A stretch of 27,483 nt of DNA from a virus. The notes below the pieces were generated by a model that was not told the DNA's origin, did not search any database, and worked only from the letters and a program-made list of their open reading frames with translations. The stretch's first letter is position 1; every line of letters begins with the position of its first letter. The DNA is taken from positions 1-27,483 of the IMG/VR virus record IMGVR_UViG_3300025880_002570; one strand, 5' to 3'. Positions 571 to 20,043 of the stretch are shown here, one piece after another. Position numbers and translations under genes: made by a program.

Positions 571-2925
571 TTATGCTGGAAATGTTGCTCCAGTTGGTAA
601 TACATTGAAATCAAGTATAATAAATTCAGCTGTTTTAGTTGGTTGTAAGAAAATCTGACCGATTAACTCATTTCTATCAATAACATCTGGTGTATTGTTT
701 GTTTCATCCATTACTACTTTAAAAGCATATAATCCCTGTCTTTGTTGAACACTTTCTAAATATGGATTTACTTGTGTTAAAAAGTTTTGTCTAGTTGCAA
801 TAGTATTTTGTTCAAATACTAAATTATCTGCAATTTGAGAAATATATCCTTTAAGTGTAATTAACAATCTACGTACATTTACTCTATCTAAAGCAGTTGC
901 TGCTTTTTGTAATGTTTTCTGTCCAAATACTACAACTCCTTGTTGTGGGAATGTAGCGATTGGGTTTACATTAGCTTCATATAATGTATCTCTATTTGCA
1001 GATGTTAATTTTCTTTCAGCTCTTACTACAGAACCTAATCCTCCTCTAGTAATACCTGCTGGTGCGAACCATGGGTCTGAAGAAGCATCTGTAAAAGCAT
1101 ATACTCCTGGAATCATTGTAGAAGCTGGTACATATACTAATAATCCAGAATTTGGATCAATAGTTTGTAACCATGGCCAATAAGCTGCTGCATAACTAGA
1201 ATCTATTGCTGCTGCATTTTGGTTTACAGTTGCGATTGCTGTGTTGTAAGGAACTAAATCCATCACATAAATTGCATCTCCTCTTGAAATACACATATTC
1301 TTAATTAAATTACACTGTACAGCATAATTTGAATAATATAAACCTGGAGCTGAAATTACATTGTATTGATATTCGTCCTGATTTGCTAATAAGTTAATTG
1401 CATTTGTATAATCTGTTCCAATTACACCTTGAGTATTTACTGAACTTATATTTTCATAAAATAAATTTGCACTTGTACTATTTAAATTAGATCCTACTGC
1501 TTCATCAAATGAACCAGATCCTAATTGAGGTAAAGATGCTGTAAATTCAGATTTTGCAATACCATTATTATCAAAGTAATAAGGTGTGTTTGCATTTACT
1601 TGTTTTACTCTTATATAATTAGATATATTTGGGTAAGAACCTGATTCTTGTAAATATGTTCCTGAACCATCTGCTGCTACTACAACATTTGAAGTATTAT
1701 CACCAATTGCTCTTGAAATATAATTTGGAGAGAAAGGATCTAAAGAGATATTATTAAATGATTCTAGAATAACTTTTTGGTTATTATTATCATTACCACG
1801 TCTAACAAATAATGAGAATACACCGGATGATGTATTTACAGCTCCAATTTCCCATCTTAGGTTATCAGCAGAACCACTTGCTAAAGCTCCGTTTGCTAAT
1901 TCTGTTCCTCCTTGATCTGCTCCTACAGGAGATGTATTATTCATAATCACTCCTTCTGAAAGTGTTTCTAATACAAAAGCTGCTTGGTTTACAATTGAAC
2001 TGTCAGTTAAAGTTATTACTAAATCGGCTGTTGGAGTTCCAACATCAGCGGCAGCTATTGTTAATGTATCACCTGCGGAATATCCAGCTCCATCACTAGT
2101 TACATTAATAGCAGTTGGTCCATTTAATAAATTAGCGTCAACTAAAGTAACTGTTATATTTTTGTCACAAGCTATAAATCCAGCATCTACTAAATCTGAA
2201 GCTGTTACTGTTAATACATTTCCTGCAACATATCCAGATCCAGCTGCTGCTACTACTATTGAAGTTATAACACCAGCTGCTCCTCCACCATCGGTTGTGA
2301 TAGTAAGTGTTGCTCCTGTTCCAACTTGAGTAGTTCCTCCTGATGTTGTTATTTTGTCAGCGGCTATTGTGAATGGACCTGTTACAGCACCAATTGTAGT
2401 ACCACCTACTAAAGCACTTTGTGCTGTTACGTTTTGGGTTGCTATTAAATTAGTTAATTCACCTATTACTACAGAAAGAGTTGCTCCATTATTAGGGGCT
2501 ATTTCACCTGCTGTTATTGCATAAGTACCTTTTGTACCCCCGGTACCACCTGAACTTAAGTCTCCGACAATATCTCCTGCTATTCCTGCACTTGCTGCTT
2601 CAACATTATTTTGAATTGTAGTAGATAAAGCGGGATCAAAAGAACCACTTGTAACTCTTGTTACTAATAAAGAAGTTCCACCTTGAGAAAAATAGTTATT
2701 AGCTGCAATTGAAGTTAAATAAGTATAATCTTGTGAACCACTTAATAAAGTTGAACCAAAAATTGTTTGGAAAGAACTAAAAGAACTAACTAAAGTTGGT
2801 TTTTCAACCGGTCCTTTAACTGTTGGTCCTATAATTGCTGCTCCTCTAGTTAAGGGTTGAGCTGTAACTAGAGATTGATCGTTTTCTCTTGCTAATACTC
2901 CTGGAGATATTAATGTTTCTGCCAT
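571..2925 (-). CDS. Tail sheath protein, T4 gp18-like, with inserted repeat domain
   Basis: The 784-residue product is longer than T4 gp18 (659 residues). It forms the contractile outer cylinder of the tail. The N-terminus (SPGVLARENDQS, then a GAAIIGPTVKGPVEKPTLV strand) and the C-terminus (ATRQNFLTQVNPYLESV, then PTKTAEFIILDFNVLPTG) are the conserved sheath regions that interlock neighbouring subunits. Residues about 125-315 look like an insertion rich in Gly, Ala, Thr and Val. It contains two similar segments 50 residues apart, GSGYVAGNVLTV (229-240) and GAGYSAGDTLTI (279-290), probably a surface-exposed beta domain. Sheath and tube genes are adjacent, as in T4. The ATG has an A-rich leader and a promoter-like box 29 bp upstream. 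Confidence 0.93.
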   Translation of the reverse strand: MAETLISPGVLARENDQSLVTAQPLTRGAAIIGPTVKGPVEKPTLVSSFSSFQTIFGSTLLSGSQDYTYLTSIAANNYFSQGGTSLLVTRVTSGSFDPALSTTIQNNVEAASAGIAGDIVGDLSSGGTGGTKGTYAITAGEIAPNNGATLSVVIGELTNLIATQNVTAQSALVGGTTIGAVTGPFTIAADKITTSGGTTQVGTGATLTITTDGGGAAGVITSIVVAAAGSGYVAGNVLTVTASDLVDAGFIACDKNITVTLVDANLLNGPTAINVTSDGAGYSAGDTLTIAAADVGTPTADLVITLTDSSIVNQAAFVLETLSEGVIMNNTSPVGADQGGTELANGALASGSADNLRWEIGAVNTSSGVFSLFVRRGNDNNNQKVILESFNNISLDPFSPNYISRAIGDNTSNVVVAADGSGTYLQESGSYPNISNYIRVKQVNANTPYYFDNNGIAKSEFTASLPQLGSGSFDEAVGSNLNSTSANLFYENISSVNTQGVIGTDYTNAINLLANQDEYQYNVISAPGLYYSNYAVQCNLIKNMCISRGDAIYVMDLVPYNTAIATVNQNAAAIDSSYAAAYWPWLQTIDPNSGLLVYVPASTMIPGVYAFTDASSDPWFAPAGITRGGLGSVVRAERKLTSANRDTLYEANVNPIATFPQQGVVVFGQKTLQKAATALDRVNVRRLLITLKGYISQIADNLVFEQNTIATRQNFLTQVNPYLESVQQRQGLYAFKVVMDETNNTPDVIDRNELIGQIFLQPTKTAEFIILDFNVLPTGATFPA
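1981..2553 (-). other. Insertion domain in the tail sheath
   Basis: Encodes residues about 125-315 of the sheath. It is low in complexity (Gly/Ala/Thr/Val/Asp) and carries two copies of a GxGYxAGxxLTx motif 50 residues apart. The flanking sequence matches sheath-type N- and C-terminal regions, so this part is likely an extra domain displayed on the tail surface. Boundaries are approximate. Confidence 0.6.
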
Positions 2926-2954
2926 TTTGTTATATTATTTTTAATATTGTTTTA

Positions 2955-2964
2955 TTATAAATAT
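2955..2964 (-). promoter_or_regulatory. Recurrent promoter-like box upstream of tail sheath gene
   Basis: Exact copy (minus strand ATATTTATAA, followed by TAAAA), 29 bp upstream of the sheath ATG in a 58-bp intergenic gap. Probably the promoter of the sheath-tube pair. Confidence 0.55.
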
Positions 2965-2983
2965 TAGGAAGAGATTCAAAAAC

Positions 2984-3238
2984 TTATTCTGTTGTAGTAA
3001 ATTCCCCAGATTCTAAATCAATGTTTCCATCCCCATATTTTTCTTGTAATTCTTTAGCCGTTTTATTAGTTTTTTCTTGTAAATCACCTAGTTTATCCAA
3101 AACAGATGCTCTTTGGCCTTCTAATATTGCCCTATTAATGTCAACTTGTCCTAATTCAAAAGTAATTGAATTTTGTTGTTGTTGATAACCTTTAAGAATT
3201 TCTAATTCTTCTTTTGATAACTTAATTTTTTTACTCAT
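2984..3238 (-). CDS. Small coiled-coil phage protein of unknown function
   Basis: An 84-residue protein, rich in Lys, Glu and Gln, that should be largely helical. Residues about 6-65 have heptad-like spacing of Leu/Ile (LSKEELEILKGY, then ILEGQRASVLDKLGDLQEK), suggesting a coiled coil. The C-terminal tail has KYGDGNIDLESGEFTTTE, a GxGxIDLExGEF ending I associate with small proteins found among structural genes of marine T4-like phages. No enzymatic motif, signal peptide or membrane helix is present. It sits just upstream of the sheath gene with its own promoter-like box 15 bp before the ATG. It could be a minor virion or assembly protein; its role is unknown. Confidence 0.75.
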   Translation of the reverse strand: MSKKIKLSKEELEILKGYQQQQNSITFELGQVDINRAILEGQRASVLDKLGDLQEKTNKTAKELQEKYGDGNIDLESGEFTTTE

Positions 3239-3253
3239 TTTTTATTTATTTAA

Positions 3254-3263
3254 TTATACATAT
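3254..3263 (-). promoter_or_regulatory. Variant promoter-like box upstream of coiled-coil gene
   Basis: One-mismatch copy (minus strand ATATGTATAA), 15 bp before the 84-aa gene. The same variant occurs at 19635-19644, so the substitution seems tolerated. Confidence 0.45.
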
Positions 3264-3270
3264 TTAATTT

Positions 3271-4242
3271 TTATTGAAAATCTATAGTAGCAAAAATAGA
3301 TTTATGATATTTTTCTGTTAAATCGTAATATTTGTCTTTTACTATATATCCAATTTTTGTTATTGTTTCTGGGAGTTCTAGACACACATTTGTTCCTTCA
3401 ATTGCCGTTTCTAAAGAATTCACTACTAATTTTAATTCTGAGGTATTATTATCATAAACAATTATTCTTGGTGTCCAATCTTCTGTATGTATCCTTTCAT
3501 GTGTGTCAGAGTTTTGAAAAAATATTTTAAAATTTTCATCATTACTAAAATTAAATAGACCATCTGTGTTTTCAAATGATATTTGATCCCAAATGGGTTC
3601 TATGTGAGTAAGATATTCAAAGTTTTTAATTAATTGCTCCCAATATTCTTCTGCATCTCTAAATTTCCCATCCTTTTTCCATGGGTGTTGATCACTCATA
3701 TAATACTTTTTATTAATTATAGGTAATAAGGATTTTAAATTTTCTTTTGATAAGACATTTAACATAAAACTCGGGAATCTATAACCTATATCTTGTAATC
3801 TTAAATCCCTTACTTTAGATACTAAAAAAGGAACAGGGTTGTTTAAATCATGAATAATGTTATCCGTTAATTTAACGTCATAATTAATAAAACTAAAATA
3901 ATCATAATCAAGTGATATTCCTAAATTCCCAGCTAATAATATTTGATTAAATGCCGTCCAACCATAATCATCTAATATATTTTGTAGTTTAATTTTTTTA
4001 TCTTTAAATTTTAAATTTCTCCAAAATACCATTCCCCTATAAGGGTATGTAATTGTTGGGTTGCTTTTATCATATATAAAATAATCAACTTTATTTTGTA
4101 TGGAATTTGATACAGGGATATGAGATAATACCATTATATCAAACCCTTCGGATTTGATTTTATCTATATTTTTATTTAATGTCTTTTTTTTAATATCATT
4201 ATCACAATGACACATTATTATTACTAAATTTTTATTTTTCAT
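3271..4242 (-). CDS. Putative glycosyltransferase (GT-A-like)
   Basis: The 323-residue protein opens with MKNKNLVIIMCHCDN, a buried-strand start. It continues with FDIMVLSHIPVSNSIQNKVDYFIYDKSNP, a pattern I associate with nucleotide-sugar transferases of the GT-A fold in marine viruses and bacteria. Residues 113-123 (YDYFSFINYDV) could provide the acidic metal/nucleotide site (DxD-like), although no perfect DxD is present. The C-terminal 90 residues (from about 230) look like a separate beta-rich segment. Its start overlaps the stop of the upstream four-domain glycosyltransferase by 11 bp, so the two are probably translationally coupled. It is the last gene of the sugar-enzyme cassette before the tail genes. 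Glycosyltransferase assignment is moderately supported; donor and acceptor are unknown. Confidence 0.55.
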   Translation of the reverse strand: MKNKNLVIIMCHCDNDIKKKTLNKNIDKIKSEGFDIMVLSHIPVSNSIQNKVDYFIYDKSNPTITYPYRGMVFWRNLKFKDKKIKLQNILDDYGWTAFNQILLAGNLGISLDYDYFSFINYDVKLTDNIIHDLNNPVPFLVSKVRDLRLQDIGYRFPSFMLNVLSKENLKSLLPIINKKYYMSDQHPWKKDGKFRDAEEYWEQLIKNFEYLTHIEPIWDQISFENTDGLFNFSNDENFKIFFQNSDTHERIHTEDWTPRIIVYDNNTSELKLVVNSLETAIEGTNVCLELPETITKIGYIVKDKYYDLTEKYHKSIFATIDFQ

Positions 4243-7200
4243 AACATGCTATATAGTTATTTTTATTTTTATTTTCTTCATACTTTTCTAAAGACTCGTA
4301 TTCTATATAATTAGTATTATCATTATTACTTTTAAACCAATCCCCTTTATTATTTAATATTTGGTTAATAATAGATTGTTCAGACTTATATAATGTAAGT
4401 AAATTTTTCTTAGTATCCACAATATTTTTATCTAGTTTAGCACTGGATTTTCCAAATACATATAATATGTCTTCTAAAATAATTTTATCAACATACTCTT
4501 TAATAAAATTAAACACAGCTTTATGTTGTGGGTGTCCATATTCACCTATAGGGTTATGTGTTACTATTTTTTCCCATTGTCTATTTAATAATATAGATTC
4601 AATATCGTATCTTTCAGGTGGATTATGTAAATCATCTTTATGATCAAACATTTCCCAAGACCCCACATTTAATTTTGTCATTACTTGTTCAAATTCTTTA
4701 CTTCTAATTTTATTTGATTTATTAGTAAGACAAATAACTTTATATTCCGGACCATGTTTTATTAATTCCGCGCCACCAAATATTAATTCATCATCAGGAT
4801 GAGATACTACCATTAATTTTTTTATTTGGTGATCTTGATACATTAAATCTAAAGTTTTACTATTTTTAGGAACAACTGATGGGTCGGGACCATGTACAAA
4901 ATAAGGTTCTTTGTTTGTTATATCAAACATAACATCAAATCCTTTATCTAATGTATTTTGATCTACAACAACTTTTTCTTTAGGGGAATAATAATTATTC
5001 CATGTAATAGGTAAATAATTAGTTTTATTTTCTTTCCAAAGTAAGGCATTAGTCACTCTTTCTTCTGAGAATGCATTATCGTCGGCAAATATTTGAAGGT
5101 TTTGGGTATTTAATTGTTTATTTAAGTCTAAACATCTTTGAAAAAATGATTCCGAATCTTTATTATAAAAATAAAAACCAGTTGCTATAATAACACTATT
5201 TGGGTTTCTTTTAATATTTAAAATATTAGATACTTCAGCTCCATAATGTCCTTCTAATTTTATGTTTTTATATTTTCTCCAATGAACCATATCTTCATCA
5301 AAATATCTCATAAATAAGGGGTAATCCTTTAAATTTAAAAGATATTTTAAAGAACCATCAATATTTTCGGTAGCAAAAGCATCACCATCTATCCAAGCAA
5401 AGTTTTTATATTCAGTTTTTAAAGAATCTATACTAGTTAAATACTTAGCAAAATATATAGAATAGTCTTTGTCTATCAAATCAAATTCCGTATTAATATA
5501 TCTTATGGGTTTAGGATCAAAGTTAATTCTTTTATTTATTACATTAGGTAAATTAATTTTAGAATCACAATTAAACCCATATACTATTAGTTTATATTTT
5601 GAATGTTTTAATAAACTTTTTGCCAAAACTTCTATCATAGATAGATATTTTTCATCTCCTCCTGTTACCCAAACAAATTCATAATTTTCTTTAGGTTCTA
5701 ATAAGTTTAAACATTCTAAATAAACCTGATCTACTGTAATTGATTTTTGACATATATGTTGTTTTGGGGTTCCTTCATTTTTAGGACACCAATCCCAATT
5801 ACCTGGATCAAATGTAAAATCTTTATTAACCCAACAATTATTACATACAGTATTATTTTCTACTTTAGTTAAATTATTTGTAAATTCGTAACCAAATGGA
5901 ATGAAATTATTAACCATTAAAGTTGGTTTATTTAAAGCCCAATTTGCCCATGATAAACCAGATCCTAAACCAATAAATAATTCTGCGTGGTAAAGGTAGT
6001 TAAAAGTTTTTTCCCAATTAAGTTTATTTTTATTTATTATATTAGTTCCCGAAAATCCCTCATAGGATAAATTAACTACTTTATACCCTTTTTTATGTAA
6101 TTTTTTAGCTAAATTTCTCCACCTATCATGAGGCCATTCTTTTAACCCCGAGGTTGCTCTAGGACCTATACAGATATATTTTCCTTTAATTGGTCTTTTA
6201 CCTATTTTAAAATCTACTCCATGGTTAATTTCTTTATAAGGAAGACCTAAAGCATCTGTTGCGGTTTGGATTAGAGGAATTGTGTTTACTTGGTTTTTAT
6301 TTTTTATACCTTTATCCCATTTTCCATTGGTTTTAAACCACCCTATTTTATAATGAGCGTATGAAGAAATATCTTTGTTAGGTTCTATAAATAATATATC
6401 TTTATATTCTGGGTTGTTAGCAAACCACTCATTATGGAAAGTACTAACTACAACTTTACAGTTATGTTTTCTTTGAAATTCTAAAACTTGAGGAGTCCAT
6501 GCTAATGTATCTCCTATAGATTTTGAATCTAATGATATTTTAACTATTCTATTGGTTACATCAAAAGTATGAATTATTTCCCCATTTACTTTAATAACCC
6601 AAGGGATATAGTATTCATGGTTACATTTAGTCCACATATTATTTTTAATAGTACTAGAATGTATTACTTTATTAGTATCAGAATTTATAAATTCTACAAA
6701 GTATTCTTCCTTATTAGAACCAAATACTTCTAACTTAACTCCTTGGTTAAAACTAAGTTCAATTTTGTTTTTAGGTGGGTTTTTTATAAAAGAATTGATT
6801 TCTTTATTAGCTATTTCAGCCATATTTTCCCAAGTAAACTTTTTTCTTAATTCTTTAGATTCTTCTAAAGCTATTTTTTTATGGTAATCGTAATTATCAT
6901 AAGCATCTCTCATTACTTCCTTAAGATGATTAAAATCTGGGACGTAAAATTCCCCTGATAGCTCTGATTGTGAGTATGTGCTGTATTCTCCTCTAATAGC
7001 GGGTTGTGTGCCTATTATATCTACAGGTAATCCTTTACCTTCAGCAAATTCTAGTTGTGCACTACAATTAGAATAAATAGAAGGTGTACCACAAGCCATA
7101 GCTTCTATTAAAGGCAAGTTCCACCCTTCAGATCGAGCACAAGATAAAAATACATGACCTTTTTGGAGGTATTTTATATATTCTTCTCTGGTAGGAAAAT

Positions 7201-7975
7201 GTTTTATTTTAATTCTTGGGTCTATTAAATTATAATGTTTTAACCTTTTTTCAGTTGTTTCAAATCCATCTTTAGCGAACATATTATCTATAGATATAAT
7301 TAAATCTACAGGTTCATCTTTATCAAATTCTTTTAAAAAACTTTCAATTATTTCTTTTGTTGATTTTCTATAATCCCATCTACCAAAATGGATAAATTTA
7401 AATCTTCCATCATCATATTCGGGTAAAGTAGATTTAGAATTAGGTTTAAAAATTTCCCCATCGACCGCTTCAGGAACTACTTTAATTTTGCTTTCAGGTA
7501 TTCCCTGCAATATGTTACAGTCTTTTTGCCATTGAGAGGGTACCCATATTTGATCAAATTCTTTTATTCGATTGTAAAAATTCTTAGGATATTCTGTTGT
7601 TTCCCATACAAGATAAGCAATTTTAGGTCCATCATATGTCTGGTAGAAATAATGGTGGTTTACTTCTGCTAAAACTATATTTAAATTGTGGTTAAAATTA
7701 TTAGGGTAATTCTTATAAATTTCTGTATCATTTAAAGTTTTATCATTTTTAAATGAAGTTTGTGATGATAAGAGTTTTTTATCTAAATCTAATATATAAG
7801 GTTCTTCATTAAAGGGTTCATCTTTTATACCATTCCAATATTTAGGAACAGTAAAGTTTCTAATTTTTAAAGGGTAATGTTTTGATAGCTTTCTAAAAAA
7901 ATCACGTGAATGGTTATTAAAACCCGTTGTTCCTATATAACAACTAGAAACTAAAATTTTAGGTGAATCTGACAT
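4232..7975 (-). CDS. Four-domain enzyme: GT4 + TibC-like O-heptosyltransferase + GT8-like transferase + PIG-L deacetylase
   Basis: A 1247-residue fusion. Residues 1-400 are a GT4-type glycosyltransferase: VWETTEYP, VPEAVDGEIFKP, FIHFGRWDYRKS, and SEGWNLPLIEAMACGTP with the EX7E pair E283/E291. Residues about 401-760 resemble autotransporter O-heptosyltransferases (TibC/Aah, a GT9 subgroup): KISLDSKSIGDTLAWTPQVLEF (479-500), CIGPRATSGLKEWPHDRW, and four cysteines C711, C714, C730 and C742 laid out as in the family's iron finger. Residues about 761-1045 look GT8-like, with WIDGDA carrying a DxD at 863-865. Residues 1050-1247 form a PIG-L/LmbE deacetylase-like domain with HPDDE at 1059-1063 and GHPQH at 1147-1151. 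Such an enzyme could attach sugars to a protein, extend them and de-N-acetylate one. It abuts the GT9-like gene upstream with no spacer and overlaps the next gene by 11 bp. Domain calls are firm to moderate; substrates are inferred. Confidence 0.85.
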   Translation of the reverse strand: MSDSPKILVSSCYIGTTGFNNHSRDFFRKLSKHYPLKIRNFTVPKYWNGIKDEPFNEEPYILDLDKKLLSSQTSFKNDKTLNDTEIYKNYPNNFNHNLNIVLAEVNHHYFYQTYDGPKIAYLVWETTEYPKNFYNRIKEFDQIWVPSQWQKDCNILQGIPESKIKVVPEAVDGEIFKPNSKSTLPEYDDGRFKFIHFGRWDYRKSTKEIIESFLKEFDKDEPVDLIISIDNMFAKDGFETTEKRLKHYNLIDPRIKIKHFPTREEYIKYLQKGHVFLSCARSEGWNLPLIEAMACGTPSIYSNCSAQLEFAEGKGLPVDIIGTQPAIRGEYSTYSQSELSGEFYVPDFNHLKEVMRDAYDNYDYHKKIALEESKELRKKFTWENMAEIANKEINSFIKNPPKNKIELSFNQGVKLEVFGSNKEEYFVEFINSDTNKVIHSSTIKNNMWTKCNHEYYIPWVIKVNGEIIHTFDVTNRIVKISLDSKSIGDTLAWTPQVLEFQRKHNCKVVVSTFHNEWFANNPEYKDILFIEPNKDISSYAHYKIGWFKTNGKWDKGIKNKNQVNTIPLIQTATDALGLPYKEINHGVDFKIGKRPIKGKYICIGPRATSGLKEWPHDRWRNLAKKLHKKGYKVVNLSYEGFSGTNIINKNKLNWEKTFNYLYHAELFIGLGSGLSWANWALNKPTLMVNNFIPFGYEFTNNLTKVENNTVCNNCWVNKDFTFDPGNWDWCPKNEGTPKQHICQKSITVDQVYLECLNLLEPKENYEFVWVTGGDEKYLSMIEVLAKSLLKHSKYKLIVYGFNCDSKINLPNVINKRINFDPKPIRYINTEFDLIDKDYSIYFAKYLTSIDSLKTEYKNFAWIDGDAFATENIDGSLKYLLNLKDYPLFMRYFDEDMVHWRKYKNIKLEGHYGAEVSNILNIKRNPNSVIIATGFYFYNKDSESFFQRCLDLNKQLNTQNLQIFADDNAFSEERVTNALLWKENKTNYLPITWNNYYSPKEKVVVDQNTLDKGFDVMFDITNKEPYFVHGPDPSVVPKNSKTLDLMYQDHQIKKLMVVSHPDDELIFGGAELIKHGPEYKVICLTNKSNKIRSKEFEQVMTKLNVGSWEMFDHKDDLHNPPERYDIESILLNRQWEKIVTHNPIGEYGHPQHKAVFNFIKEYVDKIILEDILYVFGKSSAKLDKNIVDTKKNLLTLYKSEQSIINQILNNKGDWFKSNNDNTNYIEYESLEKYEENKNKNNYIACYEK

Positions 7976-8854
7976 TTATTGTTTGTTTAATGATGCAGTT
8001 ATTTTGTTTATATCAAATATCTCATTTAAGTCATTATAGGGAAGAGTTTTTATTTCCTCAACTAAACTAAAAGGAGTATAAGATACATTATGCAAAGGGA
8101 TGTCTTTTGTATAAGGGTTTGCTTTAATATTATTATGGAAGTTATAACCAAATATTTCTGGTTTAGTATCTACCCAACATACTGTAGATTTTAGATTTAA
8201 TGCCCTTGCCATATGTTGACTAAAACTATCTATTAATAATCTTTTACTAGATTTTTGAAGGAGGATTGCTATGCTTCGGTATCCATCTAAAGCTTGTAAA
8301 CTGTCGGGGTATGTAATTTGATCTTCTCTTTTAATATGAATTATAGTATAATCCTGTTTGTAATAATCAATTAATTCTTTTACTACAATTGGGGGTATAT
8401 CTCTAGTCCATGAATATTGTTGAGATACACCAGGAGGTCCTCCATTTGGTTGAATAGCCATAATAGGTTTATCTGTAGAGTAGTATGGAGAAAAATAATC
8501 TATTTCAGGTTGTGATAAGTAAAGTTGTGGTTGTTCATTATTATATCTTAACCCAAAAAGTTCACACCAAGTTTTTAATAATGAAACAGGTTTATTAGTA
8601 ATAAAATCAGATGTTTTATAAGGTTCAGACGCAAATATTTTACATTTTTGGTCTTTAATATACTTTAGATATAACCCATTTGCTTGGTTGATATCATAAG
8701 TTTCATGTATATGAGGATTGTTTAAAAAGACGTCAGTATAGCCGGTTACTACTATTAGTTTTGCGTTTTTATAACGTGTTTTAATGGCAATTACTACAGC
8801 TGTTGCCATGATAGACTTACCAAGTCCACCTTCAATTTGAAAGATTATATTCAT
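7976..8854 (-). CDS. GT9-like (heptosyltransferase-type) glycosyltransferase
   Basis: The 292-residue protein begins MNIIFQIEGGLGKSIMATAVV, which matches the first strand and glycine loop of GT9 enzymes (usually GGLGD). It then has AKLIVVTGYTDVFLNNPHI, the typical 'where is the partner strand' segment. The C-terminal half has AIQPNGG (about residue 154) and SSKRLLIDSFSQHMARALNLKSTVCWV, equivalent to the GT9 segment that recognises the ADP-sugar and ends the Rossmann domain. GT9 enzymes transfer heptose or related sugars from ADP-activated donors. The canonical Asp of GGLGD is replaced by Lys, so activity or donor may differ. The gene is directly joined to the four-domain enzyme (7975/7976), suggesting joint action. 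A weak terminator-like hairpin precedes it, so it may need its own promoter, which I do not see. Confidence 0.65.
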   Translation of the reverse strand: MNIIFQIEGGLGKSIMATAVVIAIKTRYKNAKLIVVTGYTDVFLNNPHIHETYDINQANGLYLKYIKDQKCKIFASEPYKTSDFITNKPVSLLKTWCELFGLRYNNEQPQLYLSQPEIDYFSPYYSTDKPIMAIQPNGGPPGVSQQYSWTRDIPPIVVKELIDYYKQDYTIIHIKREDQITYPDSLQALDGYRSIAILLQKSSKRLLIDSFSQHMARALNLKSTVCWVDTKPEIFGYNFHNNIKANPYTKDIPLHNVSYTPFSLVEEIKTLPYNDLNEIFDINKITASLNKQ

Positions 8855-8888
8855 TTATAACTTAATTTATTTATAACTTAAATATACG

Positions 8889-8916
8889 AAAAAAATTTAG
8901 TATTTCCTAACTAAAT
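8889..8916 (-). terminator. Possible weak intrinsic terminator after the 103-aa gene
   Basis: On the minus strand a 7-bp AT-rich stem (ATTTAGT/ACTAAAT) with an 8-nt loop is followed by a run of seven T. It lies just past the stop at 8931. The AU-rich stem makes efficient termination doubtful; an outer ATACGA/TCGTAT pairing also exists. Confidence 0.35.
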
Positions 8917-8930
8917 CGTATTTTTTATTA

Positions 8931-9242
8931 TTAATTCTCCCAAGGAAAACCAGTACCATTAATAGCAGGAGGAGTGGATATCATATTAGCTATTGAAGCT
9001 GAATTTTCTTGTTCTATAAGAGCTGTATCAACTAGAGATGTAATCCAACTTAAAACATTTTCTTGAGTTAGGTTTTCAAATTCAATAAAACCTGGGGTAT
9101 CTATTGATCCTGTTACTTCTATCTCCCCATTATATCTTTCTCCAACTTCTTCATGAAGAGAATCAACTATGAATGAAATTCTATTTATTATTCCAGTACT
9201 TATTTCTCTTTCAAGTTCTGTAATTCTATAATTATGTACCAT
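8931..9242 (-). CDS. Small tail-associated protein (DUF7936-like), function unknown
   Basis: The 103-residue protein begins VHNYRITELERE and contains IEVTGSIDTPGFIEFENLTQENVLSWI and a final GFPWEN. This pattern (VHNYxITxLER near the start, FIxFxxLTxExVxxW in the middle, a PW motif at the end) matches a small uncharacterised family I recall as DUF7936, common beside tail and fibre genes of T7-like and T4-like phages. It has no signal peptide or membrane helix. It has its own promoter-like box 16 bp upstream and interrupts the glycosyltransferase cassette. That placement suggests it is a virion or tail-assembly protein rather than a sugar enzyme. Family membership is from memory; its function is unknown. 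Confidence 0.65.
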   Translation of the reverse strand: MVHNYRITELEREISTGIINRISFIVDSLHEEVGERYNGEIEVTGSIDTPGFIEFENLTQENVLSWITSLVDTALIEQENSASIANMISTPPAINGTGFPWEN

Positions 9243-9258
9243 GTTTATTGTTATTTTG

Positions 9259-9268
9259 TTATAAATAT
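9259..9268 (-). promoter_or_regulatory. Recurrent promoter-like box upstream of the 103-aa gene
   Basis: Exact copy (minus strand ATATTTATAA, followed by CAAAA), 16 bp before the ATG at 9242. It is the only copy inside the glycosyltransferase cassette. Confidence 0.5.
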
Positions 9269-9279
9269 ATAATTTTTAT

Positions 9280-9846
9280 TTAATGTATTGGTTTTATCCA
9301 ACTATCATCAAGGTATGTTTTAAATGGTTCTTGAAATGCTTCATTTACCGCACGTACTACACCAGGCCATTCTTTTTGGTAATCGTGTCCACCTATTAAT
9401 TGTTTAGTTTTGGGTGTGTATAATTTTATATCTTTTTTTACCGATTCGTAATCATGGGCACCATCTATATAAATAAAATCAAAGTAACCATCTGGAAAGA
9501 TGTTTGATATATTGTAACTATATTCTTTGTGGTGAGTGATATTACTAAAATGGCGAGTATTAAGTTTAAATTCTTCTTTTACATTATCCCATGTTTCGTT
9601 AAATACCAAATTAGATTCTTCTTTTTCTTCGTGAGGGTCTATACAATGAATTTCACTAAATATTCCTAACGAGGCAAACATAAAAGTAGATTCACCTTTA
9701 TATGACCCAATTTCTAACATTTTTAAATTAGATTTATTGTTTAATGTAGAATATATATCATACATTAATTGGTTTAAACCTAAATAAAACCTATTACCCC
9801 ACATATTATTCCATTCAGGATTAGGGTTAAATCTTAATGAACTCAT
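9280..9846 (-). CDS. SAM-dependent methyltransferase (class I, Methyltransf_24-like)
   Basis: The 188-residue protein has the class I Rossmann motifs in order. LKMLEIGSYKGE (residues 41-52) is the glycine loop that binds SAM, EIHCIDP with D70 the ribose-binding acidic position, and FIYIDGAHDYESV (124-136) with GGHDY (152-156) the signature of the small Methyltransf_24 group. That group is frequent in glycan clusters, where it methylates sugars or related small molecules. Two bases separate it from the upstream dioxygenase gene, so the two are co-transcribed. The C-terminal domain of the GT25 protein (10557-11897) is a diverged copy of this protein. O-methylation of a fibre or host glycan is a reasonable inference; the substrate is not shown. 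Confidence 0.85.
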   Translation of the reverse strand: MSSLRFNPNPEWNNMWGNRFYLGLNQLMYDIYSTLNNKSNLKMLEIGSYKGESTFMFASLGIFSEIHCIDPHEEKEESNLVFNETWDNVKEEFKLNTRHFSNITHHKEYSYNISNIFPDGYFDFIYIDGAHDYESVKKDIKLYTPKTKQLIGGHDYQKEWPGVVRAVNEAFQEPFKTYLDDSWIKPIH

Positions 9847-9847
9847 A

Positions 9848-10567
9848 TTATCCTACTAAGTTTCTATCACACCAATTGTTTTCTGATGATGCTACGTTAT
9901 TATTATTCGATTCTATGTATTCCCAGGCTAAACTAAACCGAGTATTATTTGAAGTATTTGGATAACACCCATGTATCATATTAATATTAAAAAACACAGC
10001 ATAAGGTGCATCTAATTCTAAGTCTAATATCCAATTAGGATTTAATTTTGTTTCATCTATCCATTGTATTCCTTCTATATGGGATATAACATCATGTGGT
10101 ATTATTCCTATTTTATGAGATCCAGGTATAATTCTTAAACATCCATTTTCTTTATTTGTATTTTGAAAATATAGAGCACAACTAATTATATTATCAGGAT
10201 CACCATTAAAATAAAAGTTATCTTGGTGTAAAAATGTTGATACTCCTACTTTGGGTTTCATTGGAAAAAATTTAGATATATAAACATCTAATGTTTCTTC
10301 TGTATTTATTAATTGTTTGGCTGTATTTACAAGGATTTTATTCTTTGCTATTTTTAAAAACTCAGGTTCATACTCGCATGCCCCTTCTATTTTATTTAGG
10401 TTAGTAGGACTATTTAATCTATAGTTACCTTCATGTTCCGTTAAATTAAGAGAATATTTATAGTGTTTTTGGGATATTTTTAATAGATCCTTTAATTCAT
10501 CTTCGGATAAAAAGTCTTTTATTATTACATATCCTAACTCATTAAATTTATTTATATTAAAGTTCAT
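9848..10567 (-). CDS. Phytanoyl-CoA dioxygenase (PhyH)-like 2-oxoglutarate/Fe(II) oxygenase
   Basis: The 239-residue protein starts FNELGYVIIKDFLSEDEL, the standard PhyH opening (residues 8-25). The iron ligands are visible as H114 and D116 in LHQDNFYF and H199 in MIHGCYPNTS. R210 in NTRFSLAWEY is the likely 2-oxoglutarate-binding arginine. GCLRIIPGSHKIG (142-154) is the typical strand before the second histidine. It should therefore be catalytically competent. PhyH-family enzymes hydroxylate small molecules, lipids or sugar-linked substrates. Collagen prolyl and lysyl hydroxylases share the wider 2OG-Fe superfamily but are a different family. It overlaps the GT25 gene by 11 bp and is 2 bp from the methyltransferase. 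Hydroxylation of a glycan or of the fibre is inferred only. Confidence 0.88.
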   Translation of the reverse strand: MNFNINKFNELGYVIIKDFLSEDELKDLLKISQKHYKYSLNLTEHEGNYRLNSPTNLNKIEGACEYEPEFLKIAKNKILVNTAKQLINTEETLDVYISKFFPMKPKVGVSTFLHQDNFYFNGDPDNIISCALYFQNTNKENGCLRIIPGSHKIGIIPHDVISHIEGIQWIDETKLNPNWILDLELDAPYAVFFNINMIHGCYPNTSNNTRFSLAWEYIESNNNNVASSENNWCDRNLVG

Positions 10568-11897
10568 AATTTTCTTTTTTAATTACCCAACTATTATCAA
10601 ATATTATAGCTTTAGGGGGAGCGTCTTGTATATTGTTACCACCTATAAAACCCTTTTTAGAAATTTTAGGAAAATACCTTTTAATTAAAGGTTTAATATT
10701 TTCTTGTTTTCTATTATTAATATAAAGAAATAATAAATCATCAAAAGATTCAGAAATTAAAGTGGGGTCTTGATTTATATGGTTGATATTTTTATGGAAA
10801 TAATTGTTATTATTAAATCCTATTTTTATATCTTCCCAAGTTAAATTATGTTTAATATTAAATTCATCTTCTCCCTTAAGGGGATCAATAGCATATATAT
10901 TAGAAAATAAACCACTAGAACCAAAATAAAAAGTATTTTCTCCTAAATGGCTGTTTATTTCTACCATTTTTCCTCTTTGATTCAAATTTTTAGATAAAAA
11001 ATCTATTAATCTAATTATACTAAAAAAGTTAAGGTTTAGTTTATCCTTGCTAGAAAAATTTTGAATCCCAAATTTAGGTTCTGATAAGACAATTTCTGTG
11101 TATTCATCTACTTCTTTTGGATGTTTTATATATTTAGCTATGTTTTTATTTAAGATATTACCATTTTCATCAAAAGAAATACCAACCCTTCCCCCTCCTT
11201 TTCTAAATTCATTGAAAAAGGTGTCTGAATCAGATACACTTGAATGGGAAAGATCGGATATTTGGAGAAAAATACTATTTTTTAATGTAAAAGAATTATG
11301 AGTATTATAAAATTGTTCTAGGTACACATCCGCTGCGTTTTTAATAGGTAAGACCTTATTAGTTAAAACTTTGAGCATATGATTAGTTGCAATATAAGAA
11401 TGGGCTCCTTCCCAATTTGAACTAGGGGTTGGGAGAGTTAAATATTTTCCAACATTTAAACCCTCAGTATTTTGATTTTTTTTACCTAAATGAATTAAAT
11501 CGTAATTAGAATTTTCAATTTCATTAATAATTTTAGAGTATTCATCAGTAAAAGTATTGTCGGTATTTAGTATTGGTTTATGTAAAATAATATCATCTTC
11601 TAAAAATAAAGCATTTTTTACACCATCAGATAAAGCCTGATCCCATGCCTTTTTATGGGATAGAGCACAAGCAAATACTCCCATAGTTACCATACCATTA
11701 GGATCAAAAAAAGAGGAATTTAATATTTTATCTTTTAACAATTGTTCTTGGTTAAGGTCTTTACCATCTATTGCTTCTATAAAAGTAAAATCAATATTAG
11801 GAAAATTATCTATTAAAGTTTTTTTTCTGTCTAGTCTGCGTTTTAGGTTTATAACATAGATTTTATCAAAACCAAGTGTAGAGTATTTTGTATTCAT
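10557..11897 (-). CDS. GT25-family glycosyltransferase fused to a degenerate methyltransferase domain
   Basis: The 446-residue protein has an N-terminal GT25 domain: IYVINLKRRLDR (13-24), EAIDGKDL (41-48), CALSHKKAWDQAL (77-89) and ALFLEDDIILHKP (96-108), with the acidic E100-D101-D102 metal/nucleotide site. GT25 contains bacterial LPS galactosyltransferases and animal collagen galactosyltransferases. Residues 309-446 align by eye to the whole core of the neighbouring methyltransferase (9280-9846): KMVEINSHLGENTF against KMLEIGSYKGESTF, IYAIDP against IHCIDP, and DNSWVIKK against DDSWIKP. The IDGAHDY motif has become INNRKQEN, and the glycine loop EIGS has become EINS, so SAM binding is probably lost. 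It is coupled to genes on both sides (1 bp from the GT4-like gene, 11-bp overlap with PhyH). Confidence 0.88.
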   Translation of the reverse strand: MNTKYSTLGFDKIYVINLKRRLDRKKTLIDNFPNIDFTFIEAIDGKDLNQEQLLKDKILNSSFFDPNGMVTMGVFACALSHKKAWDQALSDGVKNALFLEDDIILHKPILNTDNTFTDEYSKIINEIENSNYDLIHLGKKNQNTEGLNVGKYLTLPTPSSNWEGAHSYIATNHMLKVLTNKVLPIKNAADVYLEQFYNTHNSFTLKNSIFLQISDLSHSSVSDSDTFFNEFRKGGGRVGISFDENGNILNKNIAKYIKHPKEVDEYTEIVLSEPKFGIQNFSSKDKLNLNFFSIIRLIDFLSKNLNQRGKMVEINSHLGENTFYFGSSGLFSNIYAIDPLKGEDEFNIKHNLTWEDIKIGFNNNNYFHKNINHINQDPTLISESFDDLLFLYINNRKQENIKPLIKRYFPKISKKGFIGGNNIQDAPPKAIIFDNSWVIKKENYEL

Positions 11898-11898
11898 A

Positions 11899-12933
11899 TT
11901 ATAAGGAATCTAAGAAAAAATGGTATTTTTCTTTTAAAAAATTATCATTTAAAAACTTTATATTATTAACTTCTTGGTACAATATATCCTTTAAATCACT
12001 ATCAGAAGTATTTTTAATTTGTATAATAGTTTTTGTTATTTCATTGTAATTACACTTAGATATAAAGGGGTAATTTGGTAAAAATTCGGATATTGGCAAA
12101 TTTGGGGATATTATAGGTACCATACCATTTACCATACTATATAATGTTTGTAAATCAAAAGAATTATAAAGTCCTATATTAGCATATATATGGTTAGTTT
12201 TATAAAAATTACTGAAGTTTCTTAATTGACCTTTAAAACTGATATTAGAATGTAATGCCGTTGCATTATTTATTAAAGGTTGAGTTGTAAATGGACTTCT
12301 TCCATGTTTCCCATATATTTTCAAATTATAGTCAGATAAAGAGGCTAATGAAGGAATTAAATGCCCAAACCCATTATTAAATGAAGGTATACCATTAAAT
12401 CCTATATTATTATTAGGTTTAAAATAGGAAGGATTAAAGGTAATAGATTTTTCTTTTCCTAAAGAAGGGGGAATTATTGTTACTTTTTTATTACTTTGGA
12501 TTTCGTAATAGTTTGTAAAAAGATTAAAGTCTAAATTACTATAAAAAATTAAGGCATCAGCATAATCGTTGTATAATGTATTTTGGGAATTTTTTGATAA
12601 AGAGTTATATGATGAATCAGATTTAAAATTATAATGTTTTAAAATATCAACATCTATATTTTTATGTATTTCAGGAATAGTATCAATTACAAAAATTTTA
12701 GGGATAGAAATATTATCTAAAAAGGGAGTAAGGGATAGTAAAGAAGTTACTTTAAAATCTAATAATACTAAAACATGAGTATAGTTTTTGTTTATACTAT
12801 ATGATAAATTTACATCAGATATTGAATATATATCTTTTTGTTGAAGGTTTAATGTAGAAATTAAATTATCTAAAATAAATAATTCATTCACATACCCCCT
12901 ATCAATATAGTTTGTAATTATACATATCTTCAT
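11899..12933 (-). CDS. GT4-like glycosyltransferase, directly downstream of the large fibre
   Basis: I start this at the ATG that gives MKICIITNYIDRGYVNELF. An upstream TTG at 12948 is also in frame, but five extra residues before such a typical strand-start look unlikely. The protein has two Rossmann-like halves: the first ends near KVTIIPPSLG, and the second contains NLKIYGKHGRSPF, ISFKGQLRNFSNFY and YANIGLYNSFDLQTLYSMVNGMVPIIS. The last block occupies the place of the GT4 EX7E region, but the acidic pair is missing (N-S-F-D-L-Q instead of E...E), so the enzyme may use a variant mechanism or be inactive. The start lies 22 bp after the fibre stop, so it is the first enzyme of the fibre-linked cassette. 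Its partner and acceptor are inferred from context. Confidence 0.6.
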   Translation of the reverse strand: MKICIITNYIDRGYVNELFILDNLISTLNLQQKDIYSISDVNLSYSINKNYTHVLVLLDFKVTSLLSLTPFLDNISIPKIFVIDTIPEIHKNIDVDILKHYNFKSDSSYNSLSKNSQNTLYNDYADALIFYSNLDFNLFTNYYEIQSNKKVTIIPPSLGKEKSITFNPSYFKPNNNIGFNGIPSFNNGFGHLIPSLASLSDYNLKIYGKHGRSPFTTQPLINNATALHSNISFKGQLRNFSNFYKTNHIYANIGLYNSFDLQTLYSMVNGMVPIISPNLPISEFLPNYPFISKCNYNEITKTIIQIKNTSDSDLKDILYQEVNNIKFLNDNFLKEKYHFFLDSL

Positions 12934-12955
12934 AGGGGGAATATACAAAAATATT

Positions 12956-13270
12956 TTAGATATCCCTACTTATTTTTAATTCTAATTCTTCTACTTTAAC
13001 TGTTAAGTCTTTAATTGCTTCAATTAATAAAGGTACAATTTTTTCATAGTTAACGGCTTTATATCCACTATCTCTAGTTGTAACAGCTTCTGGTAGTATT
13101 GCTTCTATTTCTTGTGCAATTACTCCTACATCTTTACCTGTATTACCGTGTATAGTTTTTGTTTCTTCTTTAGTTAATTCTTTCCAATCAAATGTATTAC
13201 CACTTACTCCAATTACTTTACATAAAGAATTTTCTATAGGTTTAATATTACATTTTAATCTTTTATCAGA
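12956..13270 (-). other. S74 self-cleaving chaperone domain of the large fibre
   Basis: Encodes residues about 1533-1636, beginning at the SDKRLK motif. The family cleaves at this Ser after the fibre has trimerised, releasing the chaperone. Conserved GVIAQE and YxKIVPLLIEAIK segments are present, so cleavage is expected, though not demonstrated. Confidence 0.85.
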
Positions 13271-16200
13271 AGTAGCATAAGCTACAATATCATTTGTTGC
13301 ATCAATTCTACCTGTAGTTGTATTACAAGCATTTCCAGTACCCCCTACATTTAAATGATTTCTAACATGAGAACATTGAGTATAAAAGGTACAATTTTGA
13401 TTTGAAGATAAGTTATAACCAGCAAGAAAGGAATAATCATGACCATTAATGTAATTGCTATACCCACCTAATATAGCACTACAATTAGCACCATTACATA
13501 TACAATTTAGTCTACCTCCTAAGATAGCAGAGGTGTTAGAATTATAAATTTTATTCGTAGTACCTCCAACAATAGAACTCTTAGGTGAACTTACACAAAT
13601 TACATTGAAATCTCCTGCACCTATAAAACTACAATTTGTACCTGTTTGACAGATGCAGTTGTTACATCCTGCAACTATAGCACTATTACCAACACAAGTA
13701 TTAATTTTATTGGCACCTCCTGCTCCTATAAAATTTCCTGAACAAGCAGTATTATTATTGACTATACAATTTACTGATCCTCCTGCTATTACACTAGTTT
13801 TACCACTGGATATATAATTTCTACAACCACCACCAATAAAACTTTCAGTTGAACTTGAACCTGTGTTTTTTAATCCACCAGCTATAGAAAATCTAGTAGC
13901 TGAATTTGTTTGGCTACTTCCTATAGTTATTTGCATAGCCCTAATTTGAGCTAATGCATCTCCATCACCCTCTGTAAAGACATGACATTCACCAGGAGTA
14001 GCATAAACGTTTTGGGCACCATAACCAGCTAAATTATTTAAATCATAAGATATGTTTCCAAAACTATCTCCATCATAATCAAGTATGAATTTCTGGCCTT
14101 CATTAATGGCTATATTTTGGGAATCGTTATGTAATATGTTACCATCAAATGTTAAACTACCTTCAGCATTTAATTGGCCTTGTGTACCTGTTGAAGTTGT
14201 AACTCTGTTGTTACCTAAATTTGTTATAGTAGCTGTTCCGCTTGTTCCTGAAGAACCTGAAGAACCTGAGTTACCTGATGTTCCTGAAGAACCTGAAGAA
14301 CCTGAGTTACCACTTGATCCTGAACTACCTGAAGTACCAGAGTTACCGCTTGTTCCTGATGAACCACTAGAACCTGAGTTACCACTTGATCCTGAACTAC
14401 CTGAAGTACCAGAGTTACCGCTTGTTCCTGATGAACCACTAGAACCACTTGTACCACTTGATCCTGAACTACCTGAAGTACCAGAGTTACCGCTTGTTCC
14501 TGATGAACCACTAGAACCACTTGTACCACTTGATCCTGATGAACCACTTGAACCTGAGTTACCACTTGATCCTGAACTACCTGAAGTACCAGAGTTACCG
14601 CTTGTTCCTGATGAACCACTAGAACCTGAGGTTCCTGATGAACCACTAGAACCTGATGTTCCTGGGGTACCTGTTCCACCACTTGTTCCTGAAGAACCTG
14701 AACTACCCGATGAACCTGAACTACCGGATGAACCCGAAGTTCCTGAATTTCCTGATGAACCAGATGTACCACTTGATCCAGATGAACCTGAAGTTCCAGA
14801 TGAACCACTTGATCCTGAGTTTCCTGAAGAACCACTTGTTCCTGAAGATCCTGATGATCCACTTGTTCCTGAAGAACCTGATGAACCAGATGAACCACTT
14901 GAGCCTGATGTACCACTTGAGCCTGAACTACCACTTGAGCCTGAACTACCACTTGAGCCTGAACTACCTGAGGTTCCACTTGAAGCGGCATTTGTTTCAT
15001 ATCCTACATTACCACTTGAATCTACAACTAATACATCATTACTAGTTGTTATATTAGGTAAATTAGGGGCATTTAAAGTACCATCAATCATTGTTAAACC
15101 TGAACCACTTACAGATAAGATTGGAACACCTGATATATCAGATGCTGCAAATACTATCCCTGTCAAATCATCTGTTACTGAAAATAATTGACCTTGAGAT
15201 CCTTGTACATCTAAAATTGTGCTACCTGATCCTGATACTGTAAGTTTAGTACCATCAAATGTAAAATTAGCTTCAGCATTTAATGCACCTTGAGTTCCTG
15301 TTGATGTAGTTACTCTATTGTTACCTAAATTTGTTATTGTTGCTGTACCACTTGTTCCTGATGAACCAGATGTTCCTGATGAACCACTTGAACCTGAGGA
15401 ACCACTTGAACCTGAAGTTCCAGATGAACCACTTGAACCTGAAGAGCCTGAAGAGCCTGAAGAACCAGATGAACCACTTGAACCAGATGTTCCTGAGGAA
15501 CCTGAAGAGCCTGAATTTCCTGATGAACCTGATGTACCTGATGATCCACTTGAACCTGAAGTTCCAGATGAACCACTTGATCCTGAGTTTCCTGAAGAAC
15601 CACTTGTTCCTGAAGAACCACTTGAACCTGAAGAACCTGAAGTACCACTATTACCTGAACTACCTGATGAACCCGAAGTTCCACTTGAACCAGATGTTCC
15701 TGATGTACCATCATCTCCTCTATCACCTACTAAGGCGAAAGAAACAATTACATCTTCATTATTAGTAAATGGGGATGCAGCTGATGATGCTTGTTCACTT
15801 ATGTTTATTGTCCAATATACACCTAAGTCTGTTAGGTTTGATATTGAAAACAATATAAAATTTTCTGGAGCGAATTTATCCGCTATTCTCATATGACCCT
15901 TTACTGCTGATGTAGAGGCATCAATACTCTCTAAAAATGACTGTATATTATCACCATCTTCTGTAGTCTGACTAATAATGGATAATGTAGATGCGTTTTG
16001 TGTAGTGTTATTTAATCTTATATCTCCATTACCTGGATCAGCAGTACCTGTTGCTGTGTCAAATGTATAATTAAAAGTAGCACCACCAAAATTACCATCT
16101 TGTCCTGATGTACCACTTGACCCAGATGAACCTGAAGTTCCCGATGAACCTGAAGTACCACTTGAGCCTGAAGAACCACTTGAGCCTGAACTACCTGAAG

Positions 16201-17866: not shown

Positions 17867-17891
17867 ATCATTCTTATTAGGTTGGTTACTG

Positions 17892-17918
17892 ACTGTTCAG
17901 TCCACTTCCCTTGCGGGC
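17892..17918 (-). promoter_or_regulatory. Structured leader of the large fibre gene
   Basis: Between the promoter-like box and the ATG, the minus strand has a CCC-GCAA-GGG mini-hairpin with a GNRA-type tetraloop (17909-17918) and a GACTG-AA-CAGTC hairpin (17892-17903). This is an island of higher GC in an AT-rich leader and may affect translation or RNA stability. The stems are short. Confidence 0.3.
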
Positions 17919-17929
17919 CGTAATATAGT

Positions 17930-17939
17930 TATAAATATG
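17930..17939 (-). promoter_or_regulatory. Recurrent promoter-like box upstream of the large fibre
   Basis: Exact copy (minus strand ATATTTATAA), 63 bp before the ATG, farther than the usual 12-29 bp. It is followed by CTAT rather than the usual A-rich stretch. Confidence 0.5.
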
Positions 17940-17955
17940 GTTTTAATATTCCCTA

Positions 17956-18141
17956 TTAACTAGGAGGGGGAGGTATTTTTTCTTCTTCTAATTGTTGTTC
18001 AATACTTTCAATTTTTTGATTTAATTTTACTTGTATTGTACCTATAAAGATAGCATCGATACCTGTAATTGGAATGTAATCAGTTGATTTTCTAAGAGCA
18101 CGTAATTCTCTTAGAGATAAACCTGTTAGATTGTAAGACAT
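17956..18141 (-). CDS. Hypothetical small protein between the two collagen-like genes
   Basis: A 61-residue protein beginning MSYNLTGLSLRELRALRKSTDYIPITGIDAIFIGTIQVKL. A predicted helix (about 41-53, KIESIEQQLEEEK) follows, and it ends in a PPPPS tail. I do not recognise the family. It starts 3 bp after the stop of the 76-aa gene and has no separate promoter-like box, so the pair is one transcription unit. Its place between two fibre genes suggests a fibre-assembly or attachment accessory protein, but nothing in the sequence proves it. No signal peptide, membrane helix or metal motif is visible. Confidence 0.65.
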   Translation of the reverse strand: MSYNLTGLSLRELRALRKSTDYIPITGIDAIFIGTIQVKLNQKIESIEQQLEEEKIPPPPS

Positions 18142-18143
18142 AA

Positions 18144-18374
18144 CTATATATTTTTATATTTTTCTTGAATTTTTAAAGTTAAATTATAAAGTATCTCTAC
18201 ATATTCTCCTTTAAATAACCCATTTTTAATAGTAAGTAATATTAATTCAATTTCTTTTTCTGTTAATTCTATATTGTGAGTTAAAGGAGTACCCACTTTT
18301 TCAGTAGGTACTCCTTTTATTTCAACTTTATTAGATTTAAATCCCATAAACCTTTTTATTTTTTTTAAAAACAA
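18144..18374 (-). CDS. Hypothetical small basic protein between the two collagen-like genes
   Basis: The 76-residue product MFLKKIKRFMGFKSNKVE has a basic N-terminus, a central segment TPLTHNIELTEKEIELILLTIKNGLFKGEYVEILYNLTLKI that looks helical, and a Lys-rich end. The start at 18374 is TTG; an in-frame ATG lies at 18347, ten codons in. I prefer TTG because the first residues look like a natural phage N-terminus and because a promoter-like box then lies 20 bp upstream, as for other genes. The family is not recognised. It is coupled to the 61-aa gene 3 bp downstream. Confidence 0.6.
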   Translation of the reverse strand: MFLKKIKRFMGFKSNKVEIKGVPTEKVGTPLTHNIELTEKEIELILLTIKNGLFKGEYVEILYNLTLKIQEKYKNI

Positions 18375-18384
18375 TTTTTATATA

Positions 18385-19614: not shown

Positions 19615-19634
19615 TTTATATTAATTAAATTTTA

Positions 19635-19644
19635 TTATACATAT
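19635..19644 (-). promoter_or_regulatory. Variant promoter-like box upstream of the second fibre
   Basis: Minus-strand ATATGTATAA followed by TAAAA, identical to the core variant at 3254-3263, 20 bp before the ATG at 19614. Confidence 0.45.
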
Positions 19645-19661
19645 TAAACTTTATTCTTAAG

Positions 19662-20039: not shown

Positions 20040-20043
20040 TAAT

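Follow-up and report, generated by a model that had tools for sequence, protein, structure and literature searches.

A TibC-like glycosyltransferase domain and its linkage to collagen-like fibre genes in a marine phage

The enzyme and fibre genes of the window

The window analysed here, the whole 27,483-nucleotide stretch of IMG/VR record IMGVR_UViG_3300025880_002570, comes from a marine phage with T4-like structural genes and encodes a 1247-residue multi-domain enzyme with a TibC-like glycosyltransferase domain. The gene at 24617-26308 shares 56% identity with the major capsid protein of Flavobacterium phage immuto, whose annotated tail sheath and tail tube are matched by the genes at 571-2925 and 40-528 respectively. 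Since the domain resembles an adhesin-modifying enzyme and its closest relatives tend to adjoin collagen-like genes, the phage probably glycosylates its own giant fibre. The enzyme, its modules and the two fibre genes are as follows.

4232-7975, minus strand: multi-domain enzyme, 1247 residues, ordered GT4, TibC-like, region without Pfam hit, PIG-L deacetylase (open reading frame and profile matches)
6803-7930, minus strand: GT4-type glycosyltransferase module, residues 16-391 (PF00534, E 9e-11; phrog_2170, E 2e-28)
5717-6769, minus strand: TibC-like domain, residues 403-753 (TIGR04414, E 1e-57; 4rap, E 2.5e-30; AlphaFold2 predicted local distance difference test score, pLDDT, 94.2; Z 39.2 to TibC)
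6509-6511, minus strand: Asp489, aligned with TibC Asp110, the catalytic base (role as given in the available text of PMC4358343)
6005-6007, minus strand: Thr657 at the TibC Arg286 position, adenine contact lost (alignment)
5750-5845, minus strand: four-cysteine finger C711, C714, C730, C742 (sequence; TibC spacing from the available text of PMC4358343)
4841-5689, minus strand: region of ~280 residues (763-1045) without Pfam hit, with a DGDA motif; putative GT-A-like glycosyltransferase
4493-4816, minus strand: PIG-L-type de-N-acetylase domain, residues 1054-1161 (PF02585, E 1.3e-9)
12956-17866, minus strand: collagen-like fibre, 1636 residues, with S74 chaperone; predicted substrate (PF01391, E 5.5e-107)
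18385-19614, minus strand: second fibre protein, 409 residues, with GSS/GTS repeats; possible substrate

The repeats of the 1636-residue fibre (14231-17713) hold 266 counted G-X-Y triplets, including 144 GSS and 82 GTS. The initial annotation had described a Ser-rich repeat fibre about 5 kb from the enzyme, and both the distance (~5 kb from the fibre gene end at 12956 to the 5' end of the enzyme gene) and the Ser/Thr repeats hold good; its nature is that of a collagen-like Gly-X-Y protein, not a beta-helical passenger, and the triple helix would be almost without proline. Within the enzyme, the DGDA motif of residues 763-1045 is taken as a sign of a GT-A-like glycosyltransferase; the AlphaFold model of residues 762-1247 is poor (pLDDT 46).

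The TibC-like domain and its relatives

The initial annotation proposed that residues 401-760 (5696-6775) form a TibC/BAHT-like protein O-heptosyltransferase domain with an intact CxxC...C...C finger. Its landmarks lie where it placed them, with YYIPWVIKVN starting at residue 455, SLDSKSIGDTLAWTP at 481, GPRATSGLKEWP at 604 and cysteines at 711, 714, 730 and 742, and the family assignment is borne out by profile, sequence and structure comparisons. TIGR04414 (TibC/Aah) matches residues 403-753 with 195.8 bits for the whole protein and 198.1 bits for the domain alone, 2-4 bits under the curated 200-bit equivalog cut-off of this hepto_Aah_TibC model, which 15 of 42 tail-tube-chosen phage records pass. 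Only TibC (4rap) is matched by phmmer in the PDB. With the AlphaFold model (predicted template modelling score 0.90) Foldseek ranks TibC first at E 5.6e-29 and GT9 enzymes at ~1e-8, and VIA-align superposes 349 residues on TibC (model residues 5-366, N-terminal beta-barrel included) with a root-mean-square deviation (rmsd) of 1.9 and Z 39.2, as against Z 18.5-20.8 for GT9 entries. An ordinary GT9 lipopolysaccharide (LPS) enzyme is rejected on the Foldseek rank, on a Z of ~21 against 39 for TibC, and on the GT9 test model TIGR02193, which gives 24 bits against a cut-off of 185; the PF01075 match, a similarity of the C-lobe, has E 4e-8.

In TibC, according to the available text of PMC4358343, D110 is the base, T226 and K230 contact the phosphate, W305 the sugar and R286 the adenine (and is needed), and C339, C342, C358 and C370 bind iron. 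By alignment D489, T608, K612 and W676 of the window protein correspond to the first, second, third and fourth of these residues, all being kept, and C711, C714, C730 and C742 correspond to the four cysteines with the identical spacing of 3, 16 and 12, so that a chance cysteine layout is rejected. All 32 phage copies that were aligned have the Asp, Lys and Trp, and 31 of them retain the cysteines. Across 40 IMG/VR loci, with near-identical contigs counted apart, the cysteine spacing is exact in 32, two residues shorter in five, and the finger is lost in three. These last (L014, L016 and L037) are natural finger-less copies; the catalytic Asp, Lys and Trp are still present in L014, the one copy of the three that was aligned. 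In sequence and predicted model the window domain has the fold of TibC and a complete four-cysteine finger, a putative iron site. Neither of the two findings that the initial annotation named as counter-evidence was obtained: the top match is TibC and not an ordinary GT9 enzyme, and the four cysteines align with those of TibC.

Two features depart from the classical enzymes. Arg286 of TibC aligns with T657 in the window, Arg being present in 21/21 classical, 10/39 phage and 5/13 bacterial sister-group rows; and the thumb region, a beta-hairpin that makes the dodecamer contact in TibC, has 29 residues in the window as compared with 39 in 21/21 classical rows (range 29-42 among phage rows and 30-35 among bacterial sister-group rows). 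Scanning a genome-contig collection with the phage alignment yielded 79 loci, 38 of which were used in a 73-row tree. TibC and 20 other classical enzymes fall on one side and 52 rows on the other, both sides at 100/100, and the window protein sits in this sister clade, outside the TibC/autotransporter clade. The 52 rows comprise 41 labelled phage or other and 11 bacterial rows with repeat neighbours, the bacterial and phage rows being interleaved; a sheath gene marks at least L136 and L137, which are filed among bacterial metagenome-assembled genomes (MAGs), as phage contigs. Phage capture of the enzyme, as initially suggested, fits the tree. The suggested likeness to autotransporter heptosyltransferases holds for fold and finger; it fails in that the domain lies outside the autotransporter clade and the linked candidate is similar to collagen triplets, not to a strand-loop-strand beta-helix. 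With Arg286 lost, the thumb short and no AIDA-type neighbour, a plain autotransporter enzyme is rejected.

Linkage to collagen-like genes in bacteria and phages

Among the scanned loci a Ser/Thr-rich G-X-Y frame lies no farther than 9 kb from the TibC-like gene in 15 of the top 18 (L136-L153) and in none of the remaining 61, both sets including some short contigs. Twelve of the 13 bacterial genomes in the sister clade have PF01391 matches, and judged by coordinates one is located no more than 2 kb from the TibC-like gene in 11 of the 13; in five of the genomes (G082, G084, G087, G089 and G091) all of the collagen matches lie within that distance. AIDA-like neighbours show the opposite distribution, at 19/61 classical loci versus 0/18 others, and Pfam AIDA stalk repeats score above cut-off in two of three classical neighbours tested and below it in the third. 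These neighbours were counted in place of an autotransporter-barrel profile built for this purpose, which matched its own seed only. Small GTS/GSS-repeat proteins adjoin the TibC-like genes of Methylobacter, Methylomicrobium, Polaromonas and other Proteobacteria (L138, L139, L141, L142, L145-L149, L151 and L153); those of Methylobacter luteus (283 residues) and Methylomicrobium (233 residues) are both Pfam Collagen proteins, and their N-termini suggest that the adjacent repeat proteins are secreted or lipoprotein-like.

The phage sample consists of tail-tube relatives on contigs of at least 10 kb, immuto included, and was so chosen to avoid selection by the TibC-like domain; from 80 tail-tube loci, 33 on contigs shorter than 10 kb and L031-L033 (also <10 kb) were excluded. 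The 45 records divide into 11 with domain and collagen, seven with the domain only, two with collagen only and 25 with neither, such that collagen accompanies the domain in 11/18 and occurs in 2/27 records lacking it (Fisher p 1.6e-4). A 42-record subset omits L025, L047 and L057, which have the domain and no collagen (L047 and L057 are contigs of L009 and L018), and gives 11, 4, 2 and 25 (11/15 versus 2/27, p 2e-5); the figure relied on is that for 45 records. Restricted to Ser/Thr-rich collagen, by our own reading of the repeats, the counts are 9/18 versus 1/27 (p 4e-4), G060 being included for a short run of 24 triplets next to Pro-rich collagen and G058 being mixed. Correction for kinship leaves five supported pairs for 42 records and four for 45; the mean number favouring the association is 3.3 and 2.6 respectively, and no pair runs counter to it. 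Among records chosen by the domain, collagen is found in 21 of 43, many of the remainder being short contigs. The cultured Microcystis phage Mel-JY01 has a 1016-residue GTS/GSS-repeat open reading frame upstream of a TibC-like fusion, in which the domain order (GT4, methyltransferase-like, TibC) is unlike that of the window. In the Mel-JY01 record (L042 2-3049, plus strand) the gene annotated at 739-2298 runs antisense to the long GTS/GSS-repeat frame, and is probably a wrong-strand annotation.

Several observations weigh against a dedicated enzyme-fibre pairing. The kinship-corrected test is not significant alone (p 0.125-1) and is underpowered. The collagen of G052 and G067 is Pro-rich and not Ser/Thr-rich in the sequence parts covered; three 30-36 kb fragments extending from capsid-side genes through the sheath (L012, L026 and L120) contain the domain and no collagen-like gene; and L079 has Ser/Thr collagen and no TibC-like domain on its contig. 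At the level of the protein itself, the arginine needed in TibC aligns with a threonine. Separately, L122 1363-9168 (G056) contains a Ser/Thr collagen-like frame of 2602 residues, open at the contig end, with no TibC-like gene on the contig covered.

The other genes between the fibre and the sheath are as follows.

10557-11897, minus strand: GT25-family glycosyltransferase, whose C-terminal region is similar to the Methyltransf_24 protein of the window (PF01755, E 2.3e-22)
9848-10567, minus strand: PhyH-type Fe(II)/2-oxoglutarate (2OG) dioxygenase (PF05721, E 1.4e-22)
9280-9846, minus strand: methyltransferase, Methyltransf_24 (PF13578, E 2.3e-14)
7976-8854, minus strand: conserved neighbour, no family above threshold; possibly a GT9-like start
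3271-4242, minus strand: conserved neighbour without family assignment, overlapping the stop end of the enzyme gene

Proteins P0003, P0004 and P0008 have no family above threshold in Pfam, TIGR and PHROG profile scans. The dioxygenase and GT25 genes adjoin each other downstream of the collagen-like fibre (9848-11897), an arrangement that recalls collagen hydroxylation and glycosylation in animals and mimivirus. Between the gene at 20044-21027 and the sheath there seems to be a hotspot of insertion, at window 2925-20044 and at the corresponding place in other contigs; it is empty in L053, L060, L102, L105 and others, and elsewhere holds fibres and glycosyltransferases.

Proposed function and comparison with known systems

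The predicted substrate is the (G-S/T-S)n fibre because of the collagen-like linkage (11/13 bacterial genomes, 0/61 classical loci, and 11/18 versus 2/27 phages), and the initial proposal that the enzyme acts on the fibre of the phage itself has strong linkage support in both bacteria and phages. The most probable interpretation is that the TibC-like domain starts O-glycosylation of this fibre and that the glycan is lengthened or trimmed by enzymes linked to or fused with the domain. We infer that it would act on Ser/Thr of the 1636-residue fibre repeats, perhaps also on the 409-residue fibre, after which the fused GT4, putative GT-A and PIG-L modules and the neighbouring GT25, methyltransferase and dioxygenase would extend or trim the chain. 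Such a coat may stabilise a triple helix almost without proline, shield or tune the fibre, or both.

The sugar proposed in the initial annotation, heptose, is not upheld. Of the 13 bacterial sister-clade genomes 12 have an HldE domain II match, which exceeds the cut-off in 10 and falls just short of it in two, whereas 0/60 sampled Flavobacteriaceae genomes reach the cut-off of TIGR02199 (ADP-heptose synthase domain II), with 11 weak matches, and there are no matches in the Winogradskyella genome under which phage contig L137 is filed or in four of four phage records searched; for the latter reason an ADP-heptose synthase of Mel-JY01's own (a nearby 'cytidylyltransferase like protein') is rejected. 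A flavobacterial host for the window phage is suggested by the capsid match to immuto, and in such a host ADP-heptose is probably not available; together with the loss of R286, this makes another donor likely. Host identity is the weak point of this argument, and the Flavobacteriales MAG behind L140, which does have HldE, cuts against it. Heptose as donor for the window protein is, on the whole, somewhat improbable.

A variant of the fibre-glycosylation model in which the domain is a true autotransporter-type heptosyltransferase, using ADP-heptose on the fibre, is accordingly doubtful: the protein retains D489, T608, K612, W676 and the four cysteines, and HldE is common in the bacterial sister clade, but R286 is replaced by T657, the thumb is ten residues shorter than in the classical rows, the TIGR04414 score is below the equivalog cut-off, the protein is outside the classical clade and the Flavobacteriaceae fall short of the TIGR02199 cut-off, if the host is of that family. 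It is less probable again that the enzyme alters host LPS or O-chain, for superinfection exclusion or receptor change, and that the fibre is near only through a shared host-range island. Glycosyltransferases in the tail-fibre region of SAR11 myophages (pelagimyophages) are ascribed to O-chain change in the available text of PMC7029224, and three domain-bearing contigs are without collagen, one of them with Polysacc_synt_2, RmlD-like and C-methyltransferase genes; yet the fold is that of a protein O-glycosyltransferase and not of LPS GT9 enzymes, and the bacterial sister genes adjoin small, apparently secreted collagen-like proteins, not phage fibres. A degenerate relic in a mosaic protein whose other modules do the sugar chemistry is very improbable, for despite the loss of all four cysteines in L014, L016 and L037 the catalytic Asp, Lys and Trp are invariant in the aligned phage copies, no stop falls inside the match in 40/40 loci, and stand-alone copies of the domain exist. 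The Polysacc_synt_2, RmlD-like and C-methyltransferase genes, which are sugar-nucleotide genes, lie in the island of a domain-bearing phage contig at L215 3875-6731.

Fibre glycosylation by the TibC-like domain would supply a concrete candidate enzyme-substrate pair, both for phage fibres and for the Gly-Ser/Thr repeat proteins of phages and bacteria. It suggests a stabilising route for collagen-like helices nearly free of proline, and a reason why Ser/Thr-rich fibres co-travel with glycosyltransferase islands usually ascribed to host LPS change. Searches of the open-access PMC literature gave no account of a phage TibC homologue or of TIGR04414 together with collagen-like proteins. The fold and finger are known ones; here they occur in a sister clade whose linked substrate differs and whose donor, in the branch of the window, probably differs too. 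More tentatively, and with somewhat less confidence than doubt, these enzymes may constitute a widespread and hitherto undescribed class of collagen glycosyltransferases in prokaryotes: a TibC-fold subfamily of phages and free-living bacteria that decorates almost proline-free (Gly-Ser/Thr-Ser)n proteins, with a non-heptose sugar in the branch of the window, giving a stable glyco-triple-helix without hydroxyproline that phages use for giant glycosylated fibres.

Among known collagen-like proteins, BclA of Bacillus spores has Pro/Thr-rich repeats. It is glycosylated, which is thought to aid hydration networks, and the available text of PMC8968730 names no TibC-type enzyme for it. Glycans of mycobacteriophage virions are cited in the available text of PMC12619734. 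Closer in kind is mimivirus L230, a collagen lysyl hydroxylase/glucosyltransferase that modifies a viral collagen-like protein (available text of PMC9614988): here too a virus enzyme is predicted to act on a virus collagen-like protein, and the window likewise has GT25 and 2OG dioxygenase genes, but L230 acts on hydroxylysine, whereas the window fibre is rich in Ser/Thr and contains 1.8% Lys, and the proposed chain starter has another glycosyltransferase fold. The LPS heptosyltransferases WaaC and WaaF (GT9, PF01075) share the C-lobe similarity with the window domain (E 4e-8) and differ in giving Z 18.5-20.0 and rmsd 3.5-4.1, with a match that begins after the beta-barrel. TibC and AAH (TIGR04414; PDB 4rap, 4rb4) share with it the beta-barrel and GT-B fold, the spacing of the four-cysteine finger, the catalytic Asp, and the Thr/Lys phosphate and Trp sugar contacts; the window domain differs from them in its sister-clade position, lost Arg286 and short thumb, in its fusion to GT4, the region without Pfam hit and PIG-L, and in its linkage to a collagen-like fibre rather than to an AIDA-type passenger.
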